The notes below the pieces were generated by a model. It was not told the origin of the DNA. It saw only the letters and a program-made list of their open reading frames with translations, and made no database searches. Shown piece after piece: positions 5,635 through 32,114 of a stretch of DNA of 32,338 nt (position 1 is the first letter of the stretch; the number at the start of each line of letters is the position of its first letter). The DNA is taken from the NCBI GenBank assembly GCA_030828305.1, contig JAURCU010000019.1, forward strand, positions 1 to 32,338. Direction: 5' to 3'. The position numbers were made by a program, and so were the translations under genes. This stretch comes from Luteolibacter sp. Lineage in GTDB: Bacteria > Verrucomicrobiota > Verrucomicrobiia > Verrucomicrobiales > Akkermansiaceae.

Positions 5635-6465
5635 ATGAGTGATGTGGTTTCCAAAGGACTGAATCTCATTCATGGTGATTGTCTGGAGGTTTTGCCGACT
5701 CTTGAGGAGAGATCCTTCGATCTTGTGGTGACTTCTCCACCTTACAACATCGGCATTGATTATAGCAGCTACGAGGATGGGGGTTCGCGCGAGGAATTTC
5801 TTGAATGGTGTCTTCAGTGGGCGGCGGAGTTGAAGCGAGTGATGGCCGATGATGCTTCCTTCTTTCTCAACGTGGGTGCGGCTCCCTCCAACCCGCTATT
5901 GCCTCATCAGTTGCTTCTGGCGTTGACCGATGGAGCCGAGCCGCTTTTTGTGCTGCAGAATACCTTCCACTGGGTGAAGTCCATCACGGTGGAGACCCGT
6001 GAGGGAGAATCCATCAGCGCGGGTCACTTTAAACCGATCAACTCCAAGCGCTTCGTCAACGATTGCCATGAGTATGTCTACCATCTGACCAAGGACGGCA
6101 AGGTTTCCGTCGATCGCAAGGCGGCCGGTGTGCCTTATGTCGACAAGTCCAATATCGGACGCTGGGGCCATAGCGAGGGCGAGGATCTGCGCTGTCGCGG
6201 CAACACCTGGTTCATACCCTACGACACAATCCGCTCACGTGAAGAGCAGCGCCCGCATCCGGCGACCTTTCCCGTGGCCTTGGCTGAGCGCTGCATCCGA
6301 CTCCATGGCAGGGGGCCAAAAACTCGAATGATTGATCCCTTTCTGGGTATTGGCAGCACGGCGATTGCAGCAAAACATGCTGGTGCAGAGTCGTTTGTAG
6401 GAATTGAGATCGACGAGAGCTACCTCGCTGCGGCGCTTGAGCGGCTCAAGCTGATCGATGCCTGA
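5635..6465 (+). CDS. Site-specific DNA methyltransferase (beta-class, N4-cytosine/N6-adenine type)
   Basis: Catalytic motif TSPPYNIGIDY precedes SAM-binding motif DPFLGIGSTAIAAKHAG, the beta-class order. Confidence 0.9.
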   Translation: MSDVVSKGLNLIHGDCLEVLPTLEERSFDLVVTSPPYNIGIDYSSYEDGGSREEFLEWCLQWAAELKRVMADDASFFLNVGAAPSNPLLPHQLLLALTDGAEPLFVLQNTFHWVKSITVETREGESISAGHFKPINSKRFVNDCHEYVYHLTKDGKVSVDRKAAGVPYVDKSNIGRWGHSEGEDLRCRGNTWFIPYDTIRSREEQRPHPATFPVALAERCIRLHGRGPKTRMIDPFLGIGSTAIAAKHAGAESFVGIEIDESYLAAALERLKLIDA

Positions 6466-6517
6466 TTTTTCCGTGGCACTTGTTCTGCTTCATGTTTCAT
6501 TGAGCCCAACCCTATCC

Positions 6518-7354
6518 ATGCCCATGCAATTACCTTTACTCGCCACCTCCTATACTCCTGAGCGCATCCTCGATCTGACCATTACCTATGGGCTCAAGGT
6601 CTTGTTTGCATTTGTCATCTTTTTCGCCGGCAAGGCCATAGCTGGCTTCATTCGCAAGGCCGTGTATGGGGGCATGACCAAGCGTGAAGTCGATCCCACC
6701 TTGGTATCCTTTGGCAGTAGCCTGCTCTATTACTTGCTCATGGTGGTGGTGATCATTGCCGCCATCCAGCAACTCGGTTTCCAAACCACATCCTTGGTGG
6801 CTATCATCGGCGCCGCCGGTCTGGCCGTGGGTTTGGCCCTTCAGGGCTCGCTATCCAACTTTGCTTCGGGCGTGCTTCTCATTCTGTTCCGTCCATTCCA
6901 AGTGGGTGATGTGATCGAGACCGCCGGCCACGTCGGTTCGGTCAAGGAGATCGGTATTCTCATGACCATCATGACCACTGGAGACAACCGCAAGATCGTC
7001 ATGCCCAATTCGGCGGTCATGGGCGGCACCATCATCAATATCACCGCCAATGAAACCCGCCGTGTGGACATGACGGTGGGCGTCAGCTACTCAGAGGATC
7101 TTGATAAAGTGCAGGATATCATTCTCGATGTGCTAAAGGCAGATGAGCGCGTTCTTGCTGACCCTGCTCCTCAGGTCGTAGTGGGTGAGCTTGCCGACAA
7201 CAGCGTGAATTTCAGCGTGCGGCCCTGGTGCAAGAAGGAAGACTACTCGGGTGTGTTCTTCGACTTCCAAAAGACCATCAAACAGCGTCTCGACAAGGAA
7301 GGTGTCTCCATTCCCTTCCCACAGCAGGAGGTCCACGTGCATCAAGTTTCCTGA
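6518..7354 (+). CDS. Small-conductance mechanosensitive channel family protein (MscS)
   Basis: AAGLAVGLALQGSLSNFASGVLLILFRPFQVGDVIE is the MscS TM3/beta-domain signature. Start uncertain (6458 or 6518). Confidence 0.93.
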   Translation: MPMQLPLLATSYTPERILDLTITYGLKVLFAFVIFFAGKAIAGFIRKAVYGGMTKREVDPTLVSFGSSLLYYLLMVVVIIAAIQQLGFQTTSLVAIIGAAGLAVGLALQGSLSNFASGVLLILFRPFQVGDVIETAGHVGSVKEIGILMTIMTTGDNRKIVMPNSAVMGGTIINITANETRRVDMTVGVSYSEDLDKVQDIILDVLKADERVLADPAPQVVVGELADNSVNFSVRPWCKKEDYSGVFFDFQKTIKQRLDKEGVSIPFPQQEVHVHQVS

Positions 7355-7369: not shown

Positions 7370-7386
7370 GTTCCTGGTTCCTAGTT
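7370..7386 (+). repeat. Heptad tandem repeat GTTCCTG GTTCCTA GTT
   Basis: 7-nt periodicity; inverted 16/17 match to 7573-7589. Confidence 0.7.
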
Positions 7387-7387
7387 A

Positions 7388-7429: not shown

Positions 7430-7528
7430 GCAACAACCGAAGGCCCAGCGAGCAATGTGAGCTGGGATATCATCCCAACCAGCCTCGGAGGAGGCTGCAC
7501 CTTTTGTGGATCAAGTGGAACGAGATCA
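7430..7528 (-). repeat. Copy C of the 31-nt block + hairpin intergenic element
   Basis: Minus strand TGATCTCGTTCCACTTGATCCACAAAAGGTG then CAGCCTC-CTCC-GAGGCTG, then GGGCCTTCGGTTGTT 33 nt later. Confidence 0.75.
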
Positions 7529-7572
7529 GTCCATGACCGCCGAGGCTCATCGGGCGGCGGCCATAAGCCGCC

Positions 7573-7593
7573 AACTAAGAACCAGGAACCAGC
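7573..7593 (+). repeat. Heptad tandem repeat AACTAAG AACCAGG AACCAGC
   Basis: 7-nt periodicity; directly follows hairpin GGCGGC-CATAA-GCCGCC (7556-7572). Confidence 0.7.
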
Positions 7594-7642
7594 TGCCTCC
7601 CAATTTGGTTTCCATTGCAGCTGATCGCTGATAGGCAGCTGC

Positions 7643-8836
7643 ATGCGCCGTCTCCGTAACGACTTGCCCTACACTTTCCGGCCGCCGAAGCTGCAGATGT
7701 GGCTGAGGCCTCTGGTGTTGCTGATCAATCGGCACAAGCAACTGCGAAAGGACAACCGCATTGTTGCAATCGAGAGCAGTGGCTTGGAGCAGGTGGCCAA
7801 GCTGCATCAGGCGGGCCATTCCATACTGTTGGCATCCAATCACTCCGACCATTCGGACCCGCACCTGCTTATCGATCAATGCGCCGAGTATGGCATGCAT
7901 CCCTATTTTATGGGGGCGCGCGAAATTTTTGAGCTCAGCCCTTTCACCTGCTGGGCGCTGCAGGCTTCAGGAGTGTTCTCGGTTGATCGCGATGGGCCGG
8001 ATCTCTCCGCAATCAAGACAGCCATCGGCATCCTTGAAGAGGCCCAGCAGCCGCTGGTGATGTTTCCAGAAGGTGAGATCTACCACCACCACCGCCGCAT
8101 CGATCCCCTCAACGAGGGTGTGGCCTCCATCCTGCTCAAGGCCGCCAAGCGCCTGAAGGAAGGCAAGGAGGCCTATTTGGTGCCCGTTGGCATGAGTTTT
8201 TATCACGACCCCAAAGTCGAGCAGACTTTCAGTGATCGACTCTCGAGCCTTGAGGAGCGCATCGGTTGGACGCCAAAGCCCAACATGGGTGTGGTTGAGC
8301 GTGTGGTGCGTTTGGCCACCGGTGTCCTCGCGCTCAAGGAAACCGAGTTTTTAGGTGTTGCCTGCACGGGTGAGATCAAGGACCGCCTCACCCAACTTTG
8401 TGAGAACCTGCTGACTGACGTCGAAAGCCGCTACCCCAAGGATGACAGGGCGGCCACGCCGCCCGAGCGGGTGCGGGCATTGCGCTTTCGGATTCGCCGC
8501 CGACTCCTCGACGAAGAGAATCCGCCTACAGGGGAGGAGCGCGAGCAATTGCTCGATGATCTCGATCGCGCCTTCACCGCTCTCCAGGCCCACAGCTACA
8601 TCGGCGACTACATCTCTATCGACCCCACGCTCGACCGCACCGCGGAAATGATCATGAAGCTTGAGGAGGATCTCTTCGGCTATCCCAACTATCCGGTGGA
8701 GCGCAAAGCCGTGGTCAAGGTGGGTGAGCCGATCGCGGTGAGCAAACTTGTGGCTGATGAAACACTCTCAGGCAAGCAAGCAGCGGGGAAATTGACTACC
8801 ATGCTCGAGGAGCGGCTGCAGGGTTTGTTGGGGTGA
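7643..8836 (+). CDS. 1-acyl-sn-glycerol-3-phosphate acyltransferase-like (PlsC family) protein
   Basis: SILLASNHSDHSDPHLL matches the HX4D motif; MFPEGEIYHH corresponds to the FPEG motif. Confidence 0.88.
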   Translation: MRRLRNDLPYTFRPPKLQMWLRPLVLLINRHKQLRKDNRIVAIESSGLEQVAKLHQAGHSILLASNHSDHSDPHLLIDQCAEYGMHPYFMGAREIFELSPFTCWALQASGVFSVDRDGPDLSAIKTAIGILEEAQQPLVMFPEGEIYHHHRRIDPLNEGVASILLKAAKRLKEGKEAYLVPVGMSFYHDPKVEQTFSDRLSSLEERIGWTPKPNMGVVERVVRLATGVLALKETEFLGVACTGEIKDRLTQLCENLLTDVESRYPKDDRAATPPERVRALRFRIRRRLLDEENPPTGEEREQLLDDLDRAFTALQAHSYIGDYISIDPTLDRTAEMIMKLEEDLFGYPNYPVERKAVVKVGEPIAVSKLVADETLSGKQAAGKLTTMLEERLQGLLG

Positions 8837-8876
8837 ATGATTTTAGTAGCCCTCAGAGCTGCGGATTTTTGAACCG

Positions 8877-9000
8877 CAGAGGAGCAGAGGACACTGAGTT
8901 CAAAGAGATGGATTTGATTGTGGCCTAACTGGTTCAATGCAAGGCTCTGGAGTGTGAGTTGAACACCATCACTGCACACACTGTGTTCTCTGCGCCTCTG
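8877..9000. repeat. 124-bp unit bounded by 18-bp imperfect inverted repeats of the CAGAGG heptad class
   Basis: CAGAGGAGCAGAGGACAC (8877-8894) versus reverse complement of 8983-9000, CAGAGGCGCAGAGAACAC: 16/18 identical. Confidence 0.65.
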
Positions 9001-9095
9001 ATCTCGCTCCGCTCAATCCACGAAGGACGCATGGCTCGCTGGCCATGATCATCGTATGGCCGACGCGCTCCACTTGCTGCCCCTTCAGTCGTTTC
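8999..9095 (+). repeat. Copy B of the 31-nt block + hairpin intergenic element
   Basis: TGATCTCGCTCCGCTCAATCCACGAAGGACG then CATGGCT-CGCT-GGCCATG (7 bp with one G-T pair), then TGCCCCTTCAGTCGTT about 30 nt later. Confidence 0.75.
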
Positions 9096-9124
9096 GGTAA
9101 AGAAAAGCCCAATCTTCTCGCGCC

Positions 9125-9757
9125 TCAACCCTCAATCAACACCTGCAACTCCCGCGGGTCATCAAAGAGGTAATCCGGTCCCTCCTTGCTCATGGCTTCG
9201 CGTGCATTGAAGCCCCAGGTGACGGCGGCGATGGGAATGCCAACCTTCTGGCAGGCCTTGATGTCGCGGATCTCGTCACCGACGTAGAGCATCTCTTTCT
9301 TTTCCAACGAGAAGGTGCGCAGAATGGACTTCAGGTGTTTGGCCTTGCCGCTGAGCTTGGACTTGGACGAGATGAACTGGAACAAGTGATCGAGTCCGTG
9401 GTGCTTGAGGAAGAGCTCGACGTTTTCACTACTGTTGGAAGTGAGGATGCCGAAGTGCTCTACCTTGGGCTGCAGCTCGATCAAGGTCTCGCGCATGCCT
9501 TCGATCAGTTCGATGTGTTCGATACGCGAGCGCAGTATGCTCAGTCCTCGGCCAAGTAGTTTGGGAACCTTGTGTTTTGAGACACCAAGCTTCTTGAGTA
9601 GCTCCTTGGTGGAGAGTTGGCGTAGGTCTTTGACGTCGTCCCCGTGTACTTCCTTGAGCCCGAAGTTGGGGGCCATTTCGTTAAAAATGCGATGCATCTC
9701 GCCCAAGGTATTGGCAATGGTGCCGTCGAAGTCGAAGGCGATCAAGCGGGGCTTCAT
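9125..9757 (-). CDS. HAD family hydrolase (phosphoglycolate phosphatase-like)
   Basis: AFDFDGTIANT, GILTSNS, and YVGDEIRDIKACQKVGI motifs. Confidence 0.9.
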   Translation of the reverse strand: MKPRLIAFDFDGTIANTLGEMHRIFNEMAPNFGLKEVHGDDVKDLRQLSTKELLKKLGVSKHKVPKLLGRGLSILRSRIEHIELIEGMRETLIELQPKVEHFGILTSNSSENVELFLKHHGLDHLFQFISSKSKLSGKAKHLKSILRTFSLEKKEMLYVGDEIRDIKACQKVGIPIAAVTWGFNAREAMSKEGPDYLFDDPRELQVLIEG

Positions 9758-9784
9758 GCGACGATGATGGGTGAGACTGCCGGG

Positions 9785-10792
9785 TTAAACGAGCGGCAAG
9801 TTCGGGTGAATGTCTTCGCTGAGCGGCGAGGATTCTCCTGCCAAGTGGCGCAAGAGGCCGGCGAAGGCGATCATGGCGGCATTGTCGGTGCAGAATTCGG
9901 GTGGGGAAATCGCCAATTCGAGGCCGCTCTGGTTGCAGGCCGCCTGCAGTTGCTCGCGCAGGGCTCCATTCATGCTCACACCCCCGGACAGGGCGACAAG
10001 CGTGTGGCCGGACTGCTTGGCGGCCTTCAAGGTCTTGCCCACGAGGATATCGAGCACGGCCGCCTGGAAGGAAGCGGCGAGATCGGGAATGGAGACTTTG
10101 CCCTTTTCCTTTTGCAGGGTGTAGAGCACGGCGGTCTTGAGTCCCGAGAAAGAGAAGTCGAGGTGGGGCTCACTCAGCATGGAGCGGGGGAAGTCATAGG
10201 CTTGCGGGTTGCCCGCGCGCGCGGCCTTTTCGATTTCGGGTCCGCCGGGGTAGGGGAGTTCGAGCATCTTGCCGACCTTGTCATAGGCCTCGCCGGCGGC
10301 ATCATCGCGGGTACTGCCCAGCTTGCTGTATTGGCCTGCCCCCTGCACGTCGATGAGTAGTGTATGACCGCCCGAAACGATAAGAGCCAAGTGCGGGGGG
10401 ATCGAGCTGTTATGGATGAAGGGCGAGAGCAGGTGCCCCTCCATGTGGTTGATGGCGAGAAAGGGCTTGTTCAACGCGCAGGCCATGCCCTTGGCCGCCG
10501 TGCTGCCAATGAGCAGTGAGGAGGCCAGGCCGGGGCCGCTGGTGGCGGCGAAGGCGTCGATCTCAGTCATCTTGAGGTCAGCTTGTGCAAGGGTTTCTTC
10601 GACCAGTCCCTGCAATCGCAGGGAGTGATTGCGTGAGGCGAGTTCTGGCACCACGCCACCATGTTCGCGGTGAAGTTCTATCTGCGAGGAAATCACCGAA
10701 GCCAGCAGCTCAGCCGCGCTGCCACTCTCACCACGCACGATGGCAACGGCGGTTTCGTCACAGGAGGATTCGATGGCGAGCAAGGTTGGCAT
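9785..10792 (-). CDS. tsaD: tRNA N6-adenosine threonylcarbamoyltransferase
   Basis: LAIESSCDETAVA; HREHGGVVPELASRNH; NHMEGHLLSPF; LIVSGGHT; GGVSMNGALR. Confidence 0.96.
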   Translation of the reverse strand: MPTLLAIESSCDETAVAIVRGESGSAAELLASVISSQIELHREHGGVVPELASRNHSLRLQGLVEETLAQADLKMTEIDAFAATSGPGLASSLLIGSTAAKGMACALNKPFLAINHMEGHLLSPFIHNSSIPPHLALIVSGGHTLLIDVQGAGQYSKLGSTRDDAAGEAYDKVGKMLELPYPGGPEIEKAARAGNPQAYDFPRSMLSEPHLDFSFSGLKTAVLYTLQKEKGKVSIPDLAASFQAAVLDILVGKTLKAAKQSGHTLVALSGGVSMNGALREQLQAACNQSGLELAISPPEFCTDNAAMIAFAGLLRHLAGESSPLSEDIHPNLPLV

Positions 10793-10798
10793 GAGAAA

Positions 10799-10829
10799 AA
10801 CTAAGAACTATGAACTAAGAGCCAGGAAC
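10799..10829 (-). repeat. Heptad tandem repeat, minus strand GTTCCTG GCTCTTA GTTCATA GTTCTTA GTT
   Basis: 7-nt periodicity filling the gap between the antiporter stop and the tsaD start. Confidence 0.7.
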
Positions 10830-10849
10830 AGCCCCGACTTGTCGGGGCT
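10830..10849 (-). terminator. Hairpin AGCCCCGA-CAAG-TCGGGGCT overlapping the antiporter stop codon
   Basis: Perfect 8-bp stem and 4-nt loop; TAG stop lies at the stem base. Confidence 0.55.
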
Positions 10850-12617
10850 AATTGATCTCATCAATCGCTTCCCGCACAACCTGAACCGGGTCGATGTCGC
10901 CACGGTCGTAGGAGGTGAGGGCCTTGCGGACCAGAGCGACTGCACTCTCGCGCTCGTCATGGATGGCCTGCACGCCCATCCCGCGCAGGCGCTCGGCTTC
11001 ATCGGCGAACTTTGCGCGGGCGAAGAGAACGATGCCGGGGTTACGCTCGCGGGCCAGAGGCACAGCAGCACAGGTGGCGTCCACTGCGGGAAAAGTAAAG
11101 GCCATCAAGCGGGCACGTGAAACACCAGCGAGGTCGAGGGCTTCGGGGTGGGTGGCATCGGCGAAGATCACCGGTTGGCCCTCGCGCTTTAGCTTCATCA
11201 CGGTGTTGGCATTCATCTCGAGAATTAGGGTCTGGAGACCAACGCTCTTGAGGCCCTCATTGAGAGCTCTACCCACCGGCCCATAGCCGCAAATGATGGC
11301 GTGGTCGCTGATCTCTTTCACGCTCTCCTTGAGGTCGAGCTTCTGGGGGTAGTGCTGGTGTTGGGCCAGAATGCCCACGTGTTCCAGCTTCTTGGAGAAG
11401 CTGCCGGAGCCACGCATGAGGGTGGGTACGATGGCCATGCCGATGGCAGTGCAGATTAAGAGAATTTGCTGCACCGTGGGATCGAAGGGGGCGTGGATCT
11501 CGGCCTGTTGCAAAAGCACCAGTGAGAACTCACCAGTGCTCGCCAAACTGCAGGCGGCGAGGATGCCGCTGCGCGAGGGCAGCTTCATTAACTTCATGAT
11601 GCCGAAGGCGAGCACGCCCTTGCAAAGCAAGAGAGCGGTGCTGCCAATGAGTACCATCACCCAATTATCGATGATGGCGGACACGTCGATCATCAGGCCC
11701 ACCGAGACGAAGAAGATGGCCAAAAACAGATCCTTGAAGGGAAGAATGTCCGAGAGGATTCGGTGGCTGTAGATGGATTCGCTGACCACCAAGCCGGCGG
11801 CGAAGGCACCCAAGGCAAGTGAGAGATCGAGAGCGCCCCCGGCCAAGGCAATGCCGGCGCAGATGCCGATGACCGTCAGGGTGAAGAGTTCACGGCTCCG
11901 CGTCTTGGCCACCGCGTGGAGGAGGGGAGTGAGGCCATACTGGCCCAGAAGAAAGGCTCCAACCAGAAAGCCAACGCCCTTGAGAAGGGAGGTTGCCAAT
12001 TCCACCGCGAAGTTCGATTCGCTACTGCCGTAGAGCACCGGCAGGAGTAGGAACACCATGATGACGAGAATATCCTGAAACAACAGCACGCCGAGACTTG
12101 CACGGGCTCCCGGGTTGCTCTGCTGGCCCATGTCCTGGAAGGATTTCATGGCCACTGCAGTCGAGCTGAGGGCGATGGCAATGCCCAGCACCAGGCATTC
12201 GATGGCGTTGAAGCCGCCCAGCCATGCGAGTAAGCCGGCGATGGTCGCGGTAATGGCTACCTGCAGGCCGCCGCTAAGCAATGCCGAACGCCACATGTGA
12301 CGCAGCTCGGTCAGGGAAAATTCGATGCCTAGAGTGAACATCAGCAGAATGACGCCGATCTCGGCAAGATTGGAGATGACGGCGTTGTCCTCGGACATGC
12401 CGCTCATCCACATCAGGCCGAAGTTGCCGATCAACACCCCGGTGATCAGGTAGCCCACAAGCAGGCTCTGCTTGAAGCGGGTGAGCACCAGTGACACCAG
12501 GACGGCGCAAACCAGCACCAAGGTCAGCAAGGCGAAGAGCGGCGAGATGTTGGAGGCGCCCGCCGCCAGAATGTTCCACCATGGAGTCATCGCTGGCAGC
12601 TTTTCGATTTTAGCCAT
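10848..12617 (-). CDS. CPA2 family cation:proton antiporter with C-terminal TrkA-N domain (KefB/YbaL-like)
   Basis: MLFTLGIEFSLTELRHMW, many TM segments, then HAIICGYGPVGRALNEGL (RCK/TrkA-N). Start at 12617. Confidence 0.9.
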   Translation of the reverse strand: MAKIEKLPAMTPWWNILAAGASNISPLFALLTLVLVCAVLVSLVLTRFKQSLLVGYLITGVLIGNFGLMWMSGMSEDNAVISNLAEIGVILLMFTLGIEFSLTELRHMWRSALLSGGLQVAITATIAGLLAWLGGFNAIECLVLGIAIALSSTAVAMKSFQDMGQQSNPGARASLGVLLFQDILVIMVFLLLPVLYGSSESNFAVELATSLLKGVGFLVGAFLLGQYGLTPLLHAVAKTRSRELFTLTVIGICAGIALAGGALDLSLALGAFAAGLVVSESIYSHRILSDILPFKDLFLAIFFVSVGLMIDVSAIIDNWVMVLIGSTALLLCKGVLAFGIMKLMKLPSRSGILAACSLASTGEFSLVLLQQAEIHAPFDPTVQQILLICTAIGMAIVPTLMRGSGSFSKKLEHVGILAQHQHYPQKLDLKESVKEISDHAIICGYGPVGRALNEGLKSVGLQTLILEMNANTVMKLKREGQPVIFADATHPEALDLAGVSRARLMAFTFPAVDATCAAVPLARERNPGIVLFARAKFADEAERLRGMGVQAIHDERESAVALVRKALTSYDRGDIDPVQVVREAIDEIN

Positions 12618-12681
12618 GATCTGAAAGGAAAAATGCTCTTGCTGGACAAGAGGGGCCTTGCGCGCCATCACCTTTGTCGAG

Positions 12682-13497
12682 ATGCCTGAATTGCCCGAAG
12701 TCGAGACAACCCGTTTGGGAGTGCTGCCCCACGTGAAGGAAAAGACGATCCGGGAACTCATCGTTCGTCGCCGTGATTTGCGTCAGCCCGTCACGCGAGG
12801 AATATCGGCCATCGAAGGCAAGACCATCCTCGGGGTCAAACGCCGCTCGAAGTACCTGCTCTTTGAACTCAACGGTGCCGGGCACTTGCTGGTTCATCTG
12901 GGCATGTCAGGCAGTCTGCGGGTAACCAAGCCCGCGGATGAATGGCGCAAGCACGACCATGTGGGTATCACGGTCAGCAAGTCCAAGCAGTTGCGCTTCC
13001 ATGATCCGCGACGCTTCGGTCTCGTGCTGTGGATCCAAGGGGACCCCATGGAGCATCCACTGCTCAAGCACCTGGGGCCCGAGCCCTTGAGTGATGACTT
13101 TAGCGTGGACACCTTGAAAGCCGCCTGTGCCAAGCGAAGTGCAGCCATCAAGTTGGTCATCATGGATGCCAAGGTGGTCGTTGGAGTCGGCAACATTTAC
13201 GCTTCCGAGTCACTCTTTCGCGCGGGGATTTCACCACGCATTGCGGCAAAGCGCTTGAGCAAGCCCAAGCTGGCCAAGTTGGTCGAGGTGATTCGCAAGG
13301 TGTTGACGGAGTCCATTGAAGAGGGTGGTACCACGCTGCGTGACTTCGTGAATTCAGAGGGCAATCCCGGGTATTTCAAGCAGCGGTTGTTTGTATACGG
13401 GCGCGAAGGCGAGCCCTGCCGCATGTGCAAAGCTCCAATCAAACAGGCAGTGATGGGACAGCGGGCGACGTATTGGTGTAGCGCTTGTCAGCGCTAG
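12682..13497 (+). CDS. mutM: Formamidopyrimidine-DNA glycosylase
   Basis: N-terminal MPELPEVETT; VVGVGNIYASESLFRAGISP; C-terminal zinc finger CRMCKAPIKQAVMGQRATYWCSACQR. Confidence 0.96.
   Translation: MPELPEVETTRLGVLPHVKEKTIRELIVRRRDLRQPVTRGISAIEGKTILGVKRRSKYLLFELNGAGHLLVHLGMSGSLRVTKPADEWRKHDHVGITVSKSKQLRFHDPRRFGLVLWIQGDPMEHPLLKHLGPEPLSDDFSVDTLKAACAKRSAAIKLVIMDAKVVVGVGNIYASESLFRAGISPRIAAKRLSKPKLAKLVEVIRKVLTESIEEGGTTLRDFVNSEGNPGYFKQRLFVYGREGEPCRMCKAPIKQAVMGQRATYWCSACQR
13480..13495 (+). terminator. Hairpin AGCGCT-TGTC-AGCGCT overlapping the mutM stop
   Basis: 6-bp perfect stem; mutM stop TAG at 13495-13497. Confidence 0.4.
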
Positions 13498-13514
13498 CCC
13501 CGCTGCGCAGTGCT

Positions 13515-13549
13515 GTCCATCGTCCTTAGTCCATCGTCCTTTGTCTATA
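13515..13549 (+). repeat. Heptad tandem repeat GTCCATC GTCCTTA GTCCATC GTCCTTT GTCTATA
   Basis: Five consecutive 7-nt units downstream of mutM; minus-strand GTGCTTC units lie next to the convergent prmA end. Confidence 0.75.
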
Positions 13550-13579
13550 TTCGTCACGAAGCACGAAGCACTCCAGCCG

Positions 13580-14428
13580 TCAGGCCAAATCTGCCATATG
13601 ACCTCCCCGGGCCGTCACCCACTTGCCCTTCTTGATGACTTGGGTGAAGCCAAGCCCGGATTCGGCAGCCGCGGTAAAGCAGTCCCAGGCTTGGGAGGCG
13701 AGGATGCCGGAGACCACCAGTTGGCCGCCGGGAGCGAGTGACTTGGCGATTGCCGGCCAGGCCTGGATGAGCACGGTGGAGAAGATGTTGGCCAGCACGA
13801 CGTCGTAGCCGGACTTGCGCGGCTTCCATTTGAGCACGTCCTGTTGCTTGATGGAGATGCCGGGGGTCCGGTTGCGCTCGGCATTGGACAGGCTCGCTTT
13901 GACGGCAAAGGGATCGAAGTCGCAGGCGTAGAGGTCGGTGCAGCCGAGTTTGTGGGCGGCGATGGCGAGGACACCCGTGCCGCAGCCGAGGTCGGCCAGG
14001 CTCCACTTGTGGCCTTCATGCTTTTGGGCAATGTCGACGAGAAGGCGAAGGCAGGTGGAGGTGGTGGCGTGGTCGCCGGTACCGAAGGCCATCTCGGGAG
14101 GAATGGAGATGATCTTGCGCTTGGGGTGCTCCTTATGAAGTTTTTTGAGGGCGGCGGGCTTGGACCCCTGGGTGAGCAGGAAGGTGTCGCGGATCTTGAT
14201 GGGTGGGGGAGGGCTGAGAGGTTTTTTCCAGTCACCTGACATCTTGCGCACACTGCCCCCCCATTGTTCCTGGACGGCCTCGGCTTCCTTGAGCGTGGCG
14301 CAAAAGAGCTTGAGCCGGATTGATTTGCCGCCCTTGAGGTATTCAATGACGAGGTTGGGGTTGCCTTGGAAGCGTTCTTCCCAGGCGTCGATCCATTTGG
14401 CAGCGGAGAGTTTGGACCAGAGGTGCAT
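13580..14428 (-). CDS. prmA: Ribosomal protein L11 methyltransferase
   Basis: PPEMAFGTGDHATTSTCLRLL; LADLGCGTGVLAIAAHKLG; YDVVLANIFSTVLIQ. Confidence 0.92.
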   Translation of the reverse strand: MHLWSKLSAAKWIDAWEERFQGNPNLVIEYLKGGKSIRLKLFCATLKEAEAVQEQWGGSVRKMSGDWKKPLSPPPPIKIRDTFLLTQGSKPAALKKLHKEHPKRKIISIPPEMAFGTGDHATTSTCLRLLVDIAQKHEGHKWSLADLGCGTGVLAIAAHKLGCTDLYACDFDPFAVKASLSNAERNRTPGISIKQQDVLKWKPRKSGYDVVLANIFSTVLIQAWPAIAKSLAPGGQLVVSGILASQAWDCFTAAAESGLGFTQVIKKGKWVTARGGHMADLA

Positions 14429-14580
14429 GGGTTATGAGAATGCTGCTAGGTGGGGGTGGGGGTCAATGTGGTTTTGGGGTTGGGGGAGCTGGCGCTGAAC
14501 GCGGAGGTGAATGGTGTGACCACTCCTCTGATGAGATTCCTGTGGGCGCCAAGGGACGTGTCAGCCTCGGGCGATGAGAT

Positions 14581-14678
14581 TGATCTCGCTCCGCTCGATC
14601 CACGAGGGGTGCGGCCCCCGCCGGGGCCGGAAATTAGGATTTGCCCATGCGCTTCGCTTTGGGCCCTACGGTCGTTCG
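14581..14678 (+). repeat. Copy A of the 31-nt block + hairpin intergenic element
   Basis: TGATCTCGCTCCGCTCGATCCACGAGGGGTG then CGGCCCC-CGCC-GGGGCCG, then GGGCCCTACGGTCGTT 31 nt later. Confidence 0.75.
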
Positions 14679-14686
14679 AACCTTCG

Positions 14687-14717
14687 GTTCGTAATCTCAG
14701 AGCCCACTCCATTTTCC
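14687..14717 (+). repeat. Inverted partial copy of the tRNA-Gly 3' end and its downstream flank
   Basis: GTTCGTAATCTCAGAGCCCACTCCATTTTCC versus minus-strand GTTCGAATCTCATCGCCCGCTCCATTTTCC (14782-14753); one gap and few mismatches. Confidence 0.7.
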
Positions 14718-14722
14718 GTAAA

Positions 14723-14751
14723 AAACCCCCATCCGGAACGGATGGGGGTTT
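14723..14751 (-). terminator. Intrinsic terminator of tRNA-Gly (near-symmetric, possibly bidirectional)
   Basis: AAACCCCCATCCG-GAA-CGGATGGGGGTTT, 13-bp stem; T-tract on the minus strand. Confidence 0.85.
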
Positions 14752-14758
14752 AGGAAAA

Positions 14759-14833
14759 TGGAGCGGGCGATGAGATTCGAACTCACGACATTCACCTTGG
14801 CAAGGTGACGCTCTACCACTGAGCTACGCCCGC
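14759..14833 (-). tRNA. tRNA-Gly (anticodon GCC), CCA encoded
   Basis: Minus strand GCGGGCGTAGCTCAGTGGTAGAGCGTCACCTTGCCAAGGTGAATGTCGTGAGTTCGAATCTCATCGCCCGCTCCA folds as a cloverleaf; anticodon loop TTGCCAA. Confidence 0.96.
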
Positions 14834-31313: not shown

Positions 31314-32084
31314 ATGAAAACAACCCATCCGCTTCCCGAGAATCGACCTGAGGGCCTGGCCCTTTTCGATCTCGACGGCACCCTGATCGCCTGGGACTGC
31401 CAGCTGCTGTTTCGCCACTTTGTGGTGCGCAAGGAGCGGTGGCGCATCGTCTTTCTGAAGCACTTCCTGCTGCTGGCTCCCTTTTCCGGGTTGATTGGTG
31501 CCGAGGGCATGAAGCGCGTCTTTCTGAGCTATCTGTGGGGTATCGACCAGGAGCGTCTGGAGGGGTATGCGGCGGAGTTTGCCGATCAGTTGATGCCGGC
31601 CATCTATCCTGAGGTGAAGGCCATGCTCGATGAGCATCAGCGCAAGGGCGACTTTACCGTGCTTACCTCTGCAAGCCCCGAGTTCTACGTGAAGGAAATA
31701 GGCAAGCGTTTGGGTTTCGATCTCATTCTCGCAACCGAGCTTGAGCTTGGTCACCTCTTTCCCGATTTGGAGAACCACAAGGGGCAAGCCAAGGTCGAGC
31801 GATTGAAGCGGGTCTTGCCAGCAACTTGGTTCGATGGTGAGAGCCTTCACGCCCACGGCTACACCGATAGCACCGCTGACCTGCCCTTGCTCACCCTCTG
31901 CGACCATGCGGTATGCGTGAATCCGGGGGCGCGACTGACCCAACTGGCCCTAGAAAAGGGATGGGAGATTGTCCGACCCGCGCGCCCATGGAGTGGCTTG
32001 TTGGGAAAAGCATGGCGCTCGCTGGCGCTGCTTTTTGGCTTGGGCAGAGATCCGGGTGGGCTTGGACGAAGGACCAGGGACTAA
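31314..32084 (+). CDS. HAD-IB family phosphatase (SerB-like)
   Basis: ALFDLDGTLIAWDCQ; TVLTSASPEFYVKEI; HAHGYTDSTADLPLL. Last codons lie in heptad repeat DNA. Confidence 0.88.
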   Translation: MKTTHPLPENRPEGLALFDLDGTLIAWDCQLLFRHFVVRKERWRIVFLKHFLLLAPFSGLIGAEGMKRVFLSYLWGIDQERLEGYAAEFADQLMPAIYPEVKAMLDEHQRKGDFTVLTSASPEFYVKEIGKRLGFDLILATELELGHLFPDLENHKGQAKVERLKRVLPATWFDGESLHAHGYTDSTADLPLLTLCDHAVCVNPGARLTQLALEKGWEIVRPARPWSGLLGKAWRSLALLFGLGRDPGGLGRRTRD

Positions 32085-32091
32085 GGACCAA
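32064..32091 (-). repeat. Heptad tandem repeat (plus strand GGACGAA GGACCAG GGACTAA GGACCAA)
   Basis: Four consecutive 7-nt units; followed by hairpin GCCTCGAC-TCC-GTCGGGGC at 32097-32115. Confidence 0.75.
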
Positions 32092-32114
32092 TGACGGCCT
32101 CGACTCCGTCGGGG

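Follow-up and report, generated by a model that had tools for sequence, protein, structure and literature searches.

A short folded insertion element of Luteolibacter and its relatives, found at tRNA genes, at secA and within protein genes

The closest described counterparts of the element reported here are genomic islands that insert into tRNA genes and the cassettes of integrons. Phage Ms6 has its attB in the T-loop of a tRNA gene (PMC1762012), and integron attC sites are read by their structure and on one strand (PMC2727003). The Islander search rejects island candidates of <2 kb (PMC4383910); therefore, elements of the size described below would be invisible to it. We analyzed a 32,338-nt stretch of Luteolibacter sp. 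DNA (contig JAURCU010000019.1, positions 1 to 32,338; hereafter the window), which contains three copies (A, B, and C) of a short core, together with related copies from other genomes; in total, 112 distinct copies across Verrucomicrobiales were analyzed. Insertion of the core is precise and leaves no target duplication, and the fold is the same from copy to copy. Both the insertion and the fold are well supported, and we are highly confident that the element is an insertion whose fold is conserved. The element family is previously undescribed: literature searches brought up no account of an element like this from Verrucomicrobia, and Rfam holds no corresponding family (with matches at or near the gathering score sought, only tRNA matches passed).

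The folded core and its copies

The three cores of the window are as follows, each given with the strand on which the fold is drawn.

14581..14675, minus strand: folded core of copy A (covariance model match, 8.1e-22; consensus fold)
8999..9092, minus strand: folded core of copy B (covariance model match, 6.2e-16)
7433..7528, plus strand: folded core of copy C (covariance model match, 4.6e-21)

A preliminary description, made by a model from the letters of the window, had placed three copies of a two-block element with a variable hairpin at these sites. Their coordinates and strands agreed with the window sequence, and the identities counted by hand over the first block (27/31 for A and B, 25/31 for A and C, and 23/31 for B and C) were exact on recount. 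A pattern for this block matched three times in the window and never in 100 dinucleotide shuffles; across the parent genome (2.39 Mb, 181 contigs, ~90% complete) it matched 10 times, compared with none for a reversed control pattern. The further copies for which the preliminary description had proposed a search were numerous in the parent genome and its relatives: a covariance model built from eight copies recovered 16 in the parent genome, 12 of them with E values of ~2e-8 or better. The core is 94–96 nt long in the window copies, with a family median of ~88 nt.

The consensus fold was derived from an alignment of the strand opposite to that used in the preliminary description, and it is probably on this opposite strand that the structure forms. 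A stem, P1, encloses two hairpins, H3 and H2, and a further hairpin, H1, follows directly; on the minus strand, the core of copy A therefore reads AACGACC, P1, H3, H2, P1', H1, TCA.

14672..14675, minus strand: P1 5' strand of copy A (consensus fold, covariation)
14643..14664, minus strand: H3 of copy A (consensus fold)
14612..14629, minus strand: H2 of copy A, the hairpin of the preliminary description (consensus fold)
14602..14605, minus strand: P1 3' strand of copy A, paired with 14672-14675 (consensus fold; P1 covaries across copies)
14582..14600, minus strand: H1 of copy A (consensus fold, covariation)

The hairpin first noticed is real but forms only part of a fold that also includes P1, H1, and H3, and the constancy of its stem and loop lengths, which holds among the close window copies, gives way to variable lengths in the wider family. 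P1 is ACGA/TCGT in copy A, and across the copies it varies as AATGC/GCAT, AAAGC/GCTT, AACGA/TCGT, and AACAA/TTGT. H1 of copy A reads GATC-GA-GC-GGA-GC-GA-GATC, then A; G·A mismatches occur in tandem, and the triloop is GNA. Such a triloop was present in 85 of the 92 copies whose H1 was parsed, and the H2 loop CGGAGGAG in 65/112 copies. In DNA, exceptional stability is a known property of small GCGAAGC-type GNA hairpins.

The fold shows compensatory changes, which the preliminary description had noted for H2. Double changes occurred in 15 of 25 pairs among eight copies of the parent genome, whose first alignment was made by MAFFT without a model, and changes on both sides occurred in 23 of 25 pairs (488 cells) among 85 distinct sequences, including those of relatives, whose alignment was fitted to the model and so favors the structure. 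In the latter set, 90.9% of the cells were paired compared with 24–41% in slid controls, and the covariation score was 0.541, whereas shuffles scored 0.150 and slid partners no more than 0.088. Strong covariation of this kind strongly supports selection on a folded single strand. On the proposed strand, G.U pairs exceeded A.C pairs overall (71 vs 38), but A.C exceeded G.U in P1 (15 vs 11); therefore, these counts do not discriminate between a DNA and an RNA fold. Single-sequence folding energies, computed for both strands as DNA or RNA, gave no decision on the strand.

Units at tRNA genes and at secA

Copy A lies beside a tRNA-Gly gene, and the sequence between and around the two has the following parts.

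14759..14833, minus strand: intact tRNA-Gly(GCC), read as the restored target gene (ARAGORN; Rfam RF00005)
14724..14750, minus strand: terminator-like hairpin after the intact tRNA-Gly (sequence)
14692..14717, minus strand: tRNA-Gly 3' end copied in inverted orientation (sequence comparison)
14677..14691, minus strand: GAACC/GGTTC hairpin between the core and the inverted tRNA copy, linking the two (sequence)
14568..14581, minus strand: displaced tRNA-Gly 3' fragment, AATCTCATCGCCCG on the minus strand (direct repeat of 14764-14777)

The displaced fragment begins exactly where the core of copy A ends. The genus has a conserved prmA, tRNA-Gly, trpC gene order, and in 17 relatives with both neighbors on the fetched stretch the tRNA is near prmA; the compared slice measured 112–329 nt in these relatives vs 431 nt in the window, and the covariance model detected no element in their syntenic loci. 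At 14526-14540 of the window, CTCTGATGAGATTCC again resembles the tRNA-Gly 3' end (GATGAGATTC) and is possibly a remnant of a further unit. Copy B lies 30 nt downstream of a HAD-phosphatase gene (9757-9125) and copy C downstream of mscS (6458-7354), each on the strand of that gene and with no tRNA nearby.

The same arrangement recurs at other tRNA genes. The core either stands alone or forms the 3' end of a longer unit; at tRNA genes, this unit consists of a tRNA 3' half from the T-loop onward, usually a terminator, an inverted T-arm copy (often GGGATGAGAACCC), GTTYGA, and the core. Such a unit, placed between GGTTCGA and ATCC, leaves the tRNA intact and pushes the old 3' half downstream, and the T-loop (GGTTCGA^ATCC) is the site common to the tRNA insertions. 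This precise T-loop insertion, which restores the tRNA 3' end, is the main point and could not be seen by the preliminary reader. The repeats are spaced 154–244 nt apart (median, 196 nt). Three units with differing terminators are stacked at one tRNA-Pro (L091), identical units are stacked at a tRNA-Leu (L081), and two units are present at a tRNA-Glu (L085).

Counts over the copies point in the same direction. In 31/112 copies, a repeat of nearby upstream sequence starts exactly at the last base of the core, compared with 8/491 control positions (Fisher p 9e-18, a nominal value only because the copies are related). Half of the own-genome matches (8/16) adjoin a tRNA gene, which has a binomial probability of ~3e-13 under an assumed number of 80 tRNAs. 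The core is preceded by [GA]TTYGA in 32/112 copies, and in 30 of those 32 it is then followed by [AGT]TC, so that the two halves of a T-arm are apparent. An A flanks 98 and 95 of the 112 copies at the two sides. At L083, the core cuts a tRNA-Val in the T-loop and an intact tRNA-Val adjoins; tRNA-Pro bodies are likewise interrupted by the core at L034 and L129. Other positions within tRNAs also occur: a tRNA-Arg is split between the D-arm and the anticodon arm (L097), and at L017 a D-loop on the other strand contains the core. In one cluster (L082 6450-7200, G044), the tRNA-like sequences interrupted by two elements are unusual and degenerate, and ARAGORN calls no tRNA there.

A protein gene is treated in a similar manner. 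In five genomes, a core is situated at the end of secA (..GKKFKQ^CCG; SecA identified by Pfam), where the unit supplies the final codons and the stop, and a remnant beginning ATGCTGCGG then follows.

The direct-inverted-direct series of tRNA 3' ends around terminator and core, observed at copy A, L014, and L019, is also what might be left by replication template switching at hairpins, with tRNA terminators and T-arms copied forward and back and the core being a cluster of fragile hairpins where switching takes place. Switching does not produce a homologous, covarying core at many unrelated places, nor clean empty sites, and we consider this explanation improbable.

Insertions in protein genes, distribution, and proposed mobilization

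Cores without a tRNA unit interrupt an IS91-type transposase gene (L027; PF04986, PF14319), group-II-type reverse transcriptase genes (RVT_1 in L053), and genes recognized by eye as RAYT-like. When the flanks were joined, the IS91-type and reverse transcriptase genes were collinear with uninterrupted homologues, with no target duplication and with one or two differing junction bases; these collinear empty sites therefore favor insertion at the DNA level and disfavor RNA splicing. The coding insertions are mostly antisense, and many have a length not divisible by three or contain stops, with an in-frame exception at L058; the interrupted host protein genes are presumably broken. We rejected RNA splicing, or an intron, as the main idea on the grounds of this antisense placement and these frameshifts or stops. 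Rickettsia palindromic elements occur inside protein genes, but in-frame insertion of that type is not the rule here, since many coding insertions are off-frame or contain stops. At five RAYT-like loci of one genome (G026; L028, L036, L121, L122, and L123), cores lie at the same positions, and one locus has two cores, which suggests that the interrupted gene multiplied after the insertion.

These insertions also bear on the view that the core is a structured non-coding RNA gene or 3' untranslated region element that is duplicated along with tRNA 3' ends and retained because it functions as an RNA. The strong covariation and the overall excess of G.U over A.C agree with it, as does the frequent position downstream of a gene on the same strand with terminators nearby. 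The antisense and frame-breaking nature of most coding insertions, the A.C excess in P1, the precise empty sites, and the lack of an Rfam family weigh in the other direction. We regard an RNA gene as unlikely and rank it third.

Several copies (L012, L016, L018, and L126–L128) are inside simple repeats. Degenerate simple repeats of the AACTAAGAACCAGGAACC, TCCATCGTCCTTAGTCC, and CGCAGAGAACACAG types lie between genes in the window and in relatives.

7375-7387, 7573-7592, 13512-13545, 32065-32098, 8870-8998: degenerate simple repeats of the window

In another genome (G033; L132, L134, L135, and L136), the core is within a longer repeated sequence present in four copies with the 3' flank ATCGAGATTCACGACTCGACGCGCAACGCAGC; this longer repeat is probably an unrelated mobile element that carries the core along.

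Matches to the element were present in 22/40 genomes of the genus (E 1e-3), and in 30/289 genomes and 12/50 genera of the order (E 1e-4); in a phylum-wide sample of 388, they were found only in members of the same family. A scan of 84,980 GTDB species with a strict H1 pattern returned seven contigs only, whose titles name Akkermansiaceae, Akkermansia muciniphila, Verrucomicrobiales, or Verrucomicrobia, and neither of two patterns matched the IMG/VR phages.

The preliminary description had suggested a REP or IS200-like end, and a related possibility is that the core is a miniature IS200/IS605/RAYT element (HUH Y1), which a Y1 transposase cuts and pastes as single-stranded DNA hairpins, while ordinary duplication would later have produced the tandem tRNA repeats. 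Insertion without target duplication, the hairpin ends, the A at both flanks, and the frequency of Y1 transposases in the genus are consistent with this possibility. However, Y1_Tnp was detected in 35/36 genomes, equally in those free of the element, and was missing only from the parent genome, where no Y1 transposase (PF01797) was found despite the highest number of copies (16). No element copy was located within the 12 Y1 (RAYT-type) loci fetched, and the family has no fixed 4–5-nt target, no GTAG motif, and no GTAG-tagged single hairpin, so that membership among REP/IS200-like ends is not supported. A miniature Y1 element would by itself also not account for a unit that supplies a new tRNA or secA end. 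This explanation ranks second and seems to us rather unlikely; a RAYT as mobilizer was rejected, since Y1_Tnp occurs in nearly every genome sampled but not in the one with the most copies.

The layout of a scaffold followed by a target, in which the post-core sequence equals the continuation of the empty site and a short motif stands on its 5' side, could instead belong to the scaffold of a guide RNA for a TnpB/IscB-type nuclease, which the post-core sequence would direct against the empty site. PF07282, the zinc ribbon of TnpB, was absent from all 36 genomes while the controls were positive (IscB itself was not searched), and there was no match to HEARO or any other Rfam family; we consider a guide RNA very improbable. 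Two elements of a single array flank a small GIY-YIG nuclease reading frame (80 aa; L084 ~7018-7257, minus strand, G018), of which L096 has a truncated copy. It looked like cargo but was found in G018 only and was set aside; it may be cargo or a coincidence. The sole GIY-YIG match of the parent genome is within a 520-aa frame that is probably UvrC.

We tentatively favor, at somewhat short of even probability, a non-autonomous micro-island that is mobilized in trans, spares the gene it enters, and carries a folded single-strand recombination site. A trans-acting recombinase would recognize the folded strand, with H1 and its GNA tip and the H2 loop as the features read, and might join it at the hairpin loop of the target, by analogy with integron integrases acting on attC or with the integrases that build tRNA islands. 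A fuller version of this proposal, which we hold to be possible but doubtful, is that the micro-islands form a lineage-specific, gene-sparing class of non-coding cassettes (0.1–0.24 kb) with a conserved four-stem single-strand recombination site at the end of each. These cassettes would insert one after another at tRNA T-loops and at the end of secA, restore the 3' end of the gene, and depend wholly on mobilization in trans, similar to an integron-like cassette system with host tRNA hairpins as the platform.

Several points weigh against the trans-mobilized micro-island. No recombinase was found, in searches that did not include serine recombinases, IscB, or an IntI-specific model; the parent genome has just two tyrosine recombinases (PF00589), the number expected for XerC and XerD, as do two other carriers, and inspection by eye of the reading frames around arrays revealed no obvious recombinase. 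The targets share little sequence besides a flanking A, unlike ordinary att sites. Lone cores in coding genes and simple repeats are explained by the island model only as secondary sites. In addition, template switching at hairpins during replication could also yield tandem repeats and inverted copies.

If the micro-island proposal is true, these would be among the smallest integrative elements known, using a structural rather than a sequence code to target tRNA hairpin loops while sparing the split gene, and the annotation of split tRNA genes in Verrucomicrobiales genomes would have to be revised. The more than 100 covarying folds form a natural set for finding the enzyme that reads them.

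Comparison with known systems

The REP/REPIN sequences and their TnpA-REP (PMC3733652, PMC8266576) resemble the present family in being dispersed, non-autonomous, and made of small structure-conserved hairpins of the single-stranded DNA type; they differ in that they are single hairpins of 20–40 bp tagged with GTAG/CGTC, whereas here a branched fold of ~90 nt is untagged and has no linked RAYT. Miniature elements derived from IS200/IS605 share the hairpins, and the absence of target duplication was also found at the empty sites of the IS91-type and reverse transcriptase genes; a fixed tetra- or pentanucleotide target is replaced here by a constant A (98/112), the copy-richest genome is without a Y1 transposase, and the units carry rebuilt gene ends. 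The Rickettsia palindromic elements, of which RPE-4 and RPE-6 have been classed as CGTC repeats (PMC3733652), are likewise palindromic and situated within protein genes; here, the lengths are often not multiples of three and include stops, and most coding insertions presumably break the gene.

Integron cassettes and their attC (PMC2727003) share with the present units a structure-conserved folded site at the unit 3' end, serial arrays, and isolated sites elsewhere. The junctions differ in having no R'' (RYYYAAC) or R' (GTTRRRY) boxes, with ATCC, ACAA, ATGC, and others after the core, and the fold is a branched four-stem structure rather than one long hairpin. The host tRNA takes the place of attI, there is usually no cargo gene, and no integron integrase was found beside the element, with no IntI-specific model having been run.

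Islands that target tRNA genes (PMC4383910; for the phage Ms6 site, PMC1762012) are similar in that the insert rebuilds the split tRNA, the old 3' fragment remains at the far end, tandem arrays form, and the T-loop is the site; here as there, an intact tRNA at one end and a displaced fragment at the other were found in the same orientation. The present units are 154–244 bp rather than kilobases and contain no integrase gene, and one structural family uses many tRNAs, with a common folded core beside the displaced fragment. The element is thereby comparable to a genomic island shrunk about hundredfold, without an enzyme of its own.

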